From Flavobacterium album (lineage in GTDB: Bacteria > Bacteroidota > Bacteroidia > Flavobacteriales > Flavobacteriaceae): 64,000 nucleotides of DNA. Each line of letters opens with the position of its first letter. The stretch's first letter is position 1. The translations under genes were made by a program, and so were the position numbers. The notes under the pieces were generated by a model that searched no databases, had not been told where the DNA came from, and saw only the letters and a program-made list of their open reading frames with translations. This document shows positions 20,272 to 22,926 of this stretch, in pieces. The stretch is taken from contig NZ_CP029186.1 in the NCBI RefSeq assembly GCF_003096035.1, forward strand, positions 695,001 to 759,000, read 5' to 3'.

Positions 20272-22926
20272 TCACTTACTTTTTAACCAAGACATGACAC
20301 TCGATGCATATAAAATTTTTGAACTTTTAGCTTTGCCACCAAAAAAATCAACTCCAACCATCTCGATTAATTGTTTTGCAGTAATTTTTGGATGAATTTG
20401 TAATATTTTATCTATTTTCTCCATTTTAGGTATGACCTTAGCTAACTTTCTCAATAATGCAGCTCGTTCAAGAATATTTAATTTTTTTAATTCCTCTCCA
20501 ATGGGTGTGAGTACTTTTTCATCATCAATTATACCTAGTAAAATTAAATCCGCCGCGGCCTTGCTCTCGATTCCGGTTGGAATTTTATCTACCGATTTTA
20601 ATATTTCATTGAAGGTCATTCGTGGTAATGCATTATTTGTAGAAATAGATATTCGAGACCTACCTCTCCCTTTTCGTGGTTCTACAATTTTAGTTTTTAT
20701 GTCTATTTCTGAAAGCAAAAACCAACTAATCAAATATAATGCATAGGTTTCCCAAGTTTTATCTTGATACTCTTGTTTAAAAGTTTCCTTCAAGACATTT
20801 ACAATATCATCTTTGGTTATAAAAACTAAATTTCTTCTCTTTAAATTTAAATACGGTGTATAATTTTGAAATTTTTGTGTTATAAATAAAATAAAACCAT
20901 CATTAGTTATTGCAACATTACCTTTAGATATGCTATAATATTCATCGTTTTTTTGAACTAATCCCAGATTTCGTAATTCAATTAATATATTCTCGAGCGT
21001 AGTTTTACCAATTTTTTTTGGATGTCTTTTATGCAATGATTCAATGGTGACTTTCTCATTTTTATCAAAAAGAAGAAAAACCTCTAAACACAAATTCACT
21101 CCTTGTCTCAATAGAAAACTCTCACCAATGGGAGGTATAATATTTGTGACTAAGTAATCGCGGAAAATATCCCAATAAATATTATAATTAATCCCAGACT
21201 TAATTATTAAACGTTTATGGAGTAAAGAATCCACGACTTTACTATCGATAGACTCACCCACTTCGGAGATTTCGAAAAACTCGCCATCATATGCCTTTTG
21301 TGCTATTAGTTTTAAGCCTTTTAATTCATCAGGTTCAATTCGTTCTTTATCCTTTTCAAATAAATCTTTAATATTTAAATTCGACTCAATTAGTTTATCC
21401 TTTTTTAATCCTTGCTGAATCTGTTCATAGATATGAATACATAATTTTTTAGTTAACCACGGCAAACCTTGAGAACTCTCTTTAATTCTATTTTTAATTT
21501 CTCTATCTAATTTTCCAATCGATTGCTCAAGTTGTTTAATAATTCCATCTATCTCTTTTTCTCCAAATTCTTTAATAATAAACTCTCTTGACTGCTCTTT
21601 GGCTTGTTGCCAATAAAAATATGCAGGATCATCGTTTGGAATAAAAAATTCTGACTTCCAAGAAAACCCAACTATAATATTTGGTTTTTTATCTGACACA
21701 TCACTTAAGAACTTATAAAAAGATTTGAATAAGTCCTTCTTCCTGAATACATCCTCAAATTGATCGAAGATTAGAACTAAATATTTATTTTCCGATTTCA
21801 ATACCTTTAGATATTCATTAATGCTATCTGAAGTAAGTAAATCGGTAGTGGACGTGAACTCAATAGTTTGATTAAAAAAATTTTGACTTATAAAACCTTG
21901 CTCAAAAGCGGAATTAATAATTTTATTAAATGAAAGAGCAACAAAGTTATCCGATAGTGCACTCCTAGTATCTATAGCAACTGTGAAAAATTTATTTTTA
22001 TAATGCTTATTCCTACATCTTCCCTTTATTTCAAGTAATAAAGAACTTTTACCCCATCCAGATTTACCATTCAGATAAAAAATTCTTTTATGTGACTTAT
22101 TAGTGTGTATTTCTTTGAAATATTCTAAGATTTGTGTTCTTATAGTGTCTCTTCCGACGAAATGTTTATTTTTAGATGAGGCAGGTAAGTAATCATACCA
22201 ATTTTCACTTTCTTGGACTTCTGAGATAGTTTCGATTAAATTTTCACTCTCAATTAGATTATGTCTTGGTTCAGAATAACCTTTAGTAATAAAAATTTGT
22301 TCGAGTTTATTTATCTCGCTTACTTTAGACGAAATCAAGTCTATAACATTTTTGGTTACCTCGGCTTCATTATTAATCGCATTTATAACAATGAATTTAG
22401 TAGGCAGCAAATTGGATTCATTTATTAGATAAATTAAAAAATCTCCCATATAAGTGACAACCAAAACCTTTTTTGAAATGGTGTACGGTTTTAGGCTTTG
22501 CAATGGCTCAAAAATCATTTTAGAATTCAGCAGCATTTCTATTATATCTTCCGGTTCAAAAAAAGAAAGATTTTTATATCGCTCATCATTTCGATACTCG
22601 ACTAATAATCCGCCTGCGTCATACTCTAACTCATTTGTCCTAAAAAAATATCCAAAATCTGCCTTATGATGGAAAACATTTGCGAAAAATGTTCTTAACT
22701 CAATTGATGAAACTTTCTCTTTAGCTTTACATTCAACGTATAAAATTTCATCTTTTCTTTGTCTATGCTCCGCAAGTAAATCTAACTCCATACCAGTAAA
22801 CCTAATATTTTGCTTGATTTTATATTGGTGAGTGGAAAGCAAGTTCCGAATAAGATCCTCGAAACAATTACCTTGTGCCTTATTTGACGAACCTTCTTCT
22901 AATATTATTTTTATTTCTGTCTTCAA
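20272..22926 (-). CDS. PD-(D/E)xK nuclease-STAND NTPase fusion, candidate anti-phage defence protein
   Basis: This 884-residue protein starts with a restriction-endonuclease-like domain (about 15-135). It has E23 in FEDLIRNLL, D49 in GMELDLLAE and E65-x-K67 in LYVECKAKE, so the catalytic set is complete. After a linker domain (about 150-235) comes a STAND-type P-loop NTPase: VGRD at 258-261, Walker A GKSGWGKSS (287-295), Walker B LVLIFDQFED (383-392) and a GLPW motif at 487-490. The C-terminal 380 residues contain winged-helix-like segments and a final helix-turn-helix-like KSSKILYASSVMSWLKSK. This layout (nuclease effector, STAND switch, sensor) resembles Avs-type defence proteins but is much shorter and lacks obvious TPRs. 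The DNA is far more AT-rich than its neighbours. The first usable start is a TTG at 22924-22926. Confidence 0.85.
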   Translation of the reverse strand: MKTEIKIILEEGSSNKAQGNCFEDLIRNLLSTHQYKIKQNIRFTGMELDLLAEHRQRKDEILYVECKAKEKVSSIELRTFFANVFHHKADFGYFFRTNELEYDAGGLLVEYRNDERYKNLSFFEPEDIIEMLLNSKMIFEPLQSLKPYTISKKVLVVTYMGDFLIYLINESNLLPTKFIVINAINNEAEVTKNVIDLISSKVSEINKLEQIFITKGYSEPRHNLIESENLIETISEVQESENWYDYLPASSKNKHFVGRDTIRTQILEYFKEIHTNKSHKRIFYLNGKSGWGKSSLLLEIKGRCRNKHYKNKFFTVAIDTRSALSDNFVALSFNKIINSAFEQGFISQNFFNQTIEFTSTTDLLTSDSINEYLKVLKSENKYLVLIFDQFEDVFRKKDLFKSFYKFLSDVSDKKPNIIVGFSWKSEFFIPNDDPAYFYWQQAKEQSREFIIKEFGEKEIDGIIKQLEQSIGKLDREIKNRIKESSQGLPWLTKKLCIHIYEQIQQGLKKDKLIESNLNIKDLFEKDKERIEPDELKGLKLIAQKAYDGEFFEISEVGESIDSKVVDSLLHKRLIIKSGINYNIYWDIFRDYLVTNIIPPIGESFLLRQGVNLCLEVFLLFDKNEKVTIESLHKRHPKKIGKTTLENILIELRNLGLVQKNDEYYSISKGNVAITNDGFILFITQKFQNYTPYLNLKRRNLVFITKDDIVNVLKETFKQEYQDKTWETYALYLISWFLLSEIDIKTKIVEPRKGRGRSRISISTNNALPRMTFNEILKSVDKIPTGIESKAAADLILLGIIDDEKVLTPIGEELKKLNILERAALLRKLAKVIPKMEKIDKILQIHPKITAKQLIEMVGVDFFGGKAKSSKILYASSVMSWLKSK

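Follow-up and report, generated by a model that had tools for sequence, protein, structure and literature searches.

An Mrr-type nuclease joined to a STAND ATPase and a tandem winged-helix tail in Flavobacterium album, a candidate Avs-like immune receptor

In the Avs receptors, an N-terminal nuclease, a STAND NTPase, and a large C-terminal part follow one another, as in Avs4 (AVAST type 4; PDB 8dgf) and Avs3 (PDB 8dgc). According to the accessible part of PMC12931631, Avs1-4 are nucleases that are triggered by terminase, portal, or another phage protein and then cut phage and host DNA. Restriction endonucleases (REases) are also known as effectors of related systems; the accessible text of PMC7159879 places Mrr-like REases among the effectors of NTP-dependent conflict systems, and that of PMC8195603 names the NTPase family nSTAND1 and lists REase among the effectors of related systems. 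Here, we analyze a gene of Flavobacterium album, located in a 64,000-nucleotide stretch of contig NZ_CP029186.1 (positions 695,001 to 759,000; referred to as the window), that encodes a nuclease, a STAND NTPase, and a tail of winged helices in a single chain. The gene and its parts, in window coordinates, are as follows.

20272..22926, minus strand: whole gene, encoding a protein of 884 residues with an Mrr-type nuclease domain, an nSTAND1 NTPase, and a tandem winged-helix tail, TTG start
22507..22926, minus strand: residues 1-140, Mrr_cat-family nuclease domain of the PD-(D/E)xK type, with E23, D49, E65, and K67, based on Pfam, conservation, and secondary-structure order
22192..22506, minus strand: residues 141-245, variable alpha/beta linker domain, based on its lower conservation
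21340..22191, minus strand: residues 246-529, STAND NTPase with Walker A at 287-295, Walker B at 383-392, and GLPW at 487-490, based on Pfam nSTAND1 and structural matches
21124..21339, minus strand: residues 530-601, first winged-helix segment after the NTPase and most conserved part of the tail, based on models and alignment
20707..21123, minus strand: residues 602-740, tail unit 1, consisting of a winged helix and of helices that end in W-x-x-YA-x-x-L-x-x-W
20275..20628, minus strand: residues 767-884, tail unit 2, the fastest-diverging and likely the specificity unit, based on the repeat profile and alignment

We suggest, with a probability of roughly 0.45, that this STAND ATPase, encoded by a single, patchily distributed gene and equipped with an Mrr-type nuclease domain and a tail of tandem winged helices, acts as an immune receptor of the Avs kind, the tail of which reads invading DNA or a protein on it. 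The sequence itself shows how the domains are ordered, that the residues for catalysis and ATP binding are conserved, that the tail contains a repeat and diverges fast at its end, and that the gene is patchily distributed and low in G+C. According to this model, invading DNA, or protein sitting on it, would be read by the tail, switching and assembly would be the part of the ATPase, and ATP-driven assembly would turn the nuclease on, releasing it to cut DNA; in the end, either the invader or the infected cell would be lost. The conserved segment from the nuclease to the first winged helix would serve as the machine and the variable units as its reading head, and together they would provide a compact defence, encoded by one gene, against viruses or plasmids.

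A preliminary description, made from the DNA letters alone, had proposed that a nuclease-type domain and a STAND NTPase are joined in this gene. Consistently, both domains score above the Pfam cut-offs, Mrr_cat at residues 16-105 (E 1.3e-7; 32.1 bits against a cut-off of 21) and nSTAND1 (PF20703) at residues 252-465 (E 1.5e-7). The nuclease residues, described as complete, are intact and conserved in a 220-row alignment comprising 199 of the 201 fetched proteins (two of fewer than 840 residues were left out) and 21 loci, with about six proteins entered twice; E23, D49, and E65 are each present in 219 rows and K67 in 218 with arginine in one, and one row has a gap. The core motifs of STAND proteins are Walker A, Walker B, and GxP, and all three were correctly read in the protein, as GKSGWGKSS, LVLIFDQFED, and GLPW, respectively, with K293, D388, and P489 each present in 220 of the 220 rows. 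The motifs lie in a STAND-type core, and the domains follow the order effector, NTPase, C-terminal part. The nuclease and the ATPase are both predicted to be active. The PD-(D/E)xK fold has the order helix-strand-strand-strand-helix-strand. In the AlphaFold model of the whole protein (mean pLDDT 78.7; pTM 0.37), the expected nuclease fold is predicted at residues 15-96, where the elements come in this order and D49 and E65xK67 lie on the second and third strands. Between the two domains, residues 160-210 of the linker have a weak likeness to TFIIH p8 (E 0.036). Separately, residues 254-506 (window 21409-22167) match phrog_6841, a phage protein family of unknown function (E 5.9e-7); judged from this match, phages carry an NTPase related to that of the gene.

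The nuclease of Avs4 is also of the Mrr type. In a Foldseek search with the whole model, Avs4 ranked first and Avs3 second, although only at the domain level (TM-scores 0.09-0.17). For the NTPase region, the structural matches are ORC/Cdc6, Avs4, Avs3, and BrxC, while BrxC and ORC chains rank first in a separate search with residues 244-599. The protein thus resembles the Avs proteins in its predicted N-terminal effector nuclease domain followed by a STAND NTPase; however, with 884 residues it is far shorter than the Avs4 and Avs3 chains of 1534 and 2004 residues, and whereas Avs proteins have a tetratricopeptide repeat (TPR)-like C-terminal sensor, it has a tandem winged-helix tail with no TPR match. 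Moreover, neither phmmer nor the family profile detected an Avs chain among the PDB sequences at E<=1. The likeness to Avs that had been proposed holds at the domain level, and because a sequence relation was not found and the sequence does not assign the trigger, we file the protein as a STAND nuclease variant rather than as a member of Avs. In keeping with the preliminary description, profile libraries do not recognise it: PADLOC 2.0.0 gave only weak matches (best mad8, E 0.013), none of them to an Avs-named model, and no NCBIfam match lies above any cut-off.

These similarities also support the main rival explanation, which is that the protein is a small relative of Avs with a winged-helix tail that binds a conserved phage protein, DNA being only the target of the nuclease. 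The two top Foldseek matches are the portal-bound Avs4 and the terminase-bound Avs3, terminase and portal are among the triggers reported for Avs1-4 (PMC12931631, accessible part), and a fast-evolving tail end is also what an arms race with a protein could produce. By contrast, Pfam lists no TPR or other protein-binding repeat, and the modules added in some family members are HA domains and more winged-helix units. Both of these kinds of module are known mainly from proteins that act on DNA. Altogether, we consider a phage-protein sensor unlikely, albeit less so than the two explanations weighed below.

We now return to the suggested Avs-like receptor that reads DNA, or protein on it, and to its tail. 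The winged-helix-like segments that the preliminary description had noted at the C terminus are visible in the structure models, and in residues 602-884 a winged-helix unit is repeated in tandem (profile score 54 compared with at most 16 in 40 shuffles). The absence of visible TPRs also held up in that no TPR family is among the 13 Pfam families at E<=1, a list that a divergent repeat could escape. The tail varies among family members, some of which have a third unit and others three HA domains, and mean identity falls to 38.5% at the tail end compared with 72-75% for the nuclease and the NTPase. A weak Pfam match to AAA_assoc_C is located at residues 790-847 (E 0.023). The "different sensor" of the preliminary description can thus be specified as a tandem winged-helix array, and we infer that this array is the sensor of the STAND architecture and would bind DNA. 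Because the Mrr domain is constant, the tail is variable, no TPR is matched, and parts of the tail resemble DNA-reading domains, we consider DNA, or DNA with bound protein, as the likely trigger. More tentatively, and with somewhat less confidence than in the receptor as such, we speculate that the protein is an NLR-like bacterial receptor sensing DNA itself, in which a STAND ATPase and an Mrr nuclease are combined with a restriction-enzyme-like winged-helix array that is re-aimed by rapid divergence, a third unit, or HA domains. Those Avs nuclease receptors that have been described sense phage proteins through large C-terminal domains, and the family studied here is about half their size and found in many phyla; if our suggestion is true, it would be a second way of building such a receptor and a bridge between restriction enzymes and NLR-like immunity. 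The unit structure predicts that an exchange of the last unit changes what is recognised.

Some of the same observations bear on a more direct mode of action, in which the protein is an ATP-dependent restriction enzyme with a tail that recognises a short sequence or modified base and a nuclease that cuts directly without host suicide. The nuclease is of the Mrr_cat family, and several records were named "restriction endonuclease" by their depositors, while other family members are recorded as "ATP-binding protein," "AAA family ATPase," or "nSTAND1 domain-containing NTPase." The best structural match of tail unit 1 is the nicking enzyme Nt.BspD6I; however, this match is borderline, and the AlwI profile matches the tail weakly and over 37 columns only. 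Also, Nt.BspD6I and FokI-like type IIS enzymes carry the nuclease at the opposite end, whereas the protein studied here has an N-terminal Mrr_cat nuclease and an additional ATPase. Mrr itself, a type IV restriction enzyme, shares the Mrr_cat nuclease family but to our knowledge has neither a STAND NTPase nor a repeat tail. A companion DNA methylase is not recurrent (N6_N4_Mtase in 2 of 121 neighbouring proteins), which is not decisive because a modification-dependent enzyme needs none. We regard a restriction enzyme of this type as improbable.

Nucleases have been paired with STAND NTPases before, since REase effectors in STAND or other NTP-dependent conflict systems, some with the nSTAND1 family that they have in common with this protein, appear in the accessible parts of PMC7159879 and PMC8195603. 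To this extent, the word "undescribed" in the preliminary description has to be qualified. However, the systems in these sources join effector-associated domains, lectin folds, trypsin, and other parts, and a winged-helix repeat tail is not mentioned in the accessible text. Our literature search found no paper naming both nSTAND1 and Mrr, no description of this protein, and no earlier description of the tandem winged-helix tail and its variation.

The family is large, with relatives in Bacteroidota, Clostridia, Chloroflexi, Cloacimonadota, and others. At E<=0.001, the protein search found 661 matches, of which 120 were listed and 40 used in the first alignment; a profile of distant members gave 295 matches at E<=1e-30, and the 120 listed include Acidobacteriota, Paenibacillus, Thermodesulfovibrionales, and a metagenome-assembled genome (MAG) of the archaeon Methanomethylovorans. 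Scanning genomes, we obtained 28 loci, 24 of them relatives with nuclease and NTPase and four cyanobacterial matches to the NTPase alone. Members from Chloroflexi, Cloacimonadota, and Eremiobacterota show 78-80% identity, a value to be read with MAG binning errors in mind. The gene is patchy within the genus, as the comparison proposed earlier showed: it is present in 3 of 299 genomes with its own included, that is, in 2 of the 298 others, one same-genus copy (L082) being identical in DNA to that of Flavobacterium sp. CF136 (L005). Its own included, it is found in 3 of 395 genomes of the phylum, one of the three being a weak match of 119 residues, and in a first sample of relatives in none of 36 of the same genus and 1 of 23 of the same order. 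Acquisition of the gene was likely horizontal. No family member was found in the phage records and viral contigs searched.

Plasmids carry copies in Chryseobacterium oryzae (56% identical) and, more distantly, in Burkholderia, Nostoc, and Fuscovulum (25-30%). Such copies would also fit a function that is not antiviral, i.e., a mobile-element or DNA-maintenance protein acting, for instance, in the exclusion of rival plasmids or in DNA repair. However, the window copy lies in a single contig of 3.98 Mb and others in contigs of 0.7-3.3 Mb, the neighbours differ, and a transfer or replication partner does not recur. Among the explanations considered, we judge this the least probable.

The neighbourhood of the gene offers weak evidence for defence. 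Within three positions on either side of 23 loci (121 proteins), we found no recurrent partner; 12 proteins have a homologue beside one other member and none beside two, and each PADLOC family matches at most 2 of the 121. By Pfam, the 121 include, besides the two DNA methylases, two HipA proteins, two phage integrases, and one TOTE-system primase. Both the missing partner and the weak neighbourhood evidence count against an immune receptor. Without a recurrent partner, the gene looks like a lone-gene system, and this aspect of the single-gene defence system initially proposed is retained. Among seven window neighbours scanned, the sole methyltransferase is a Methyltransf_25 protein at 17524-18147.

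rsmI, which is present in 60 of 61 genus members, lies 48 bases upstream of the gene on the same strand, and a gene for a leucine-rich repeat (LRR)-DUF6892 protein lies on the other side. The distance from rsmI to recJ is 65-2846 bases in 40 of 44 genus stretches, and recJ was not found in the other four stretches. In its own genome, rsmI and recJ are 6.5 kb apart, and between them lie the nuclease-STAND gene, the LRR gene, a gene of the methyltransferase family, and a Sel1 gene. The closest relative has a different AT-rich gene at this site (29% G+C in the interval compared with 42%). Across genomes (loci L073-L075, L077, and L114-L153, L073 being the closest relative), the interval varies in length, holds differing genes, and is often AT-richer than its surroundings; the rsmI-recJ interval is a small insertion site. 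Neither rsmI nor recJ was found in the stretches examined from the two other gene-bearing members of the genus.

The gene is an intact open reading frame (ORF) of 884 codons. The TTG start named in the preliminary description is sound, because TTG is the fifth codon past an in-frame stop with no ATG in between and the family alignment begins there, residue 1 coinciding with the TTG codon and M1 being present in at least 90% of 40 rows. The AT-richness, noticed earlier in single lines of sequence, extends over the gene, which has 29.6% G+C compared with 46.3% in the remaining window; equal-length blocks starting outside 17.5-23 kb have 40.7-53.2%, none being lower. At 24 of 25 loci measured, the flanks have a higher G+C content than the gene, the Chryseobacterium plasmid copy being the exception, with a mean difference of 6.4 points over all 25. 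AT-richness is a trait of the family. At 3 of 24 family loci (L009, L023, and L024), the gene is split into two ORFs, a disruption that may fit a costly protein or assembly errors.

Several other genes in the window deserve mention. The LRR-DUF6892 protein (18414-20111) is full-length only in its own genome among 61 searched, with partial matches in 23 others. The Sel1-repeat gene (16574-17331) consists of two adjacent ORFs with a Sel1 match in the second only and may be interrupted. At 25910-26451, a small gene with no Pfam match precedes a gene for a ParE-family toxin (PF05016; E 8.3e-13), and the two are likely a toxin-antitoxin pair. Finally, 26448-28888 contains two successive ORFs in different frames, which we take to be murF-like and alr-like and which may be one interrupted two-function gene.
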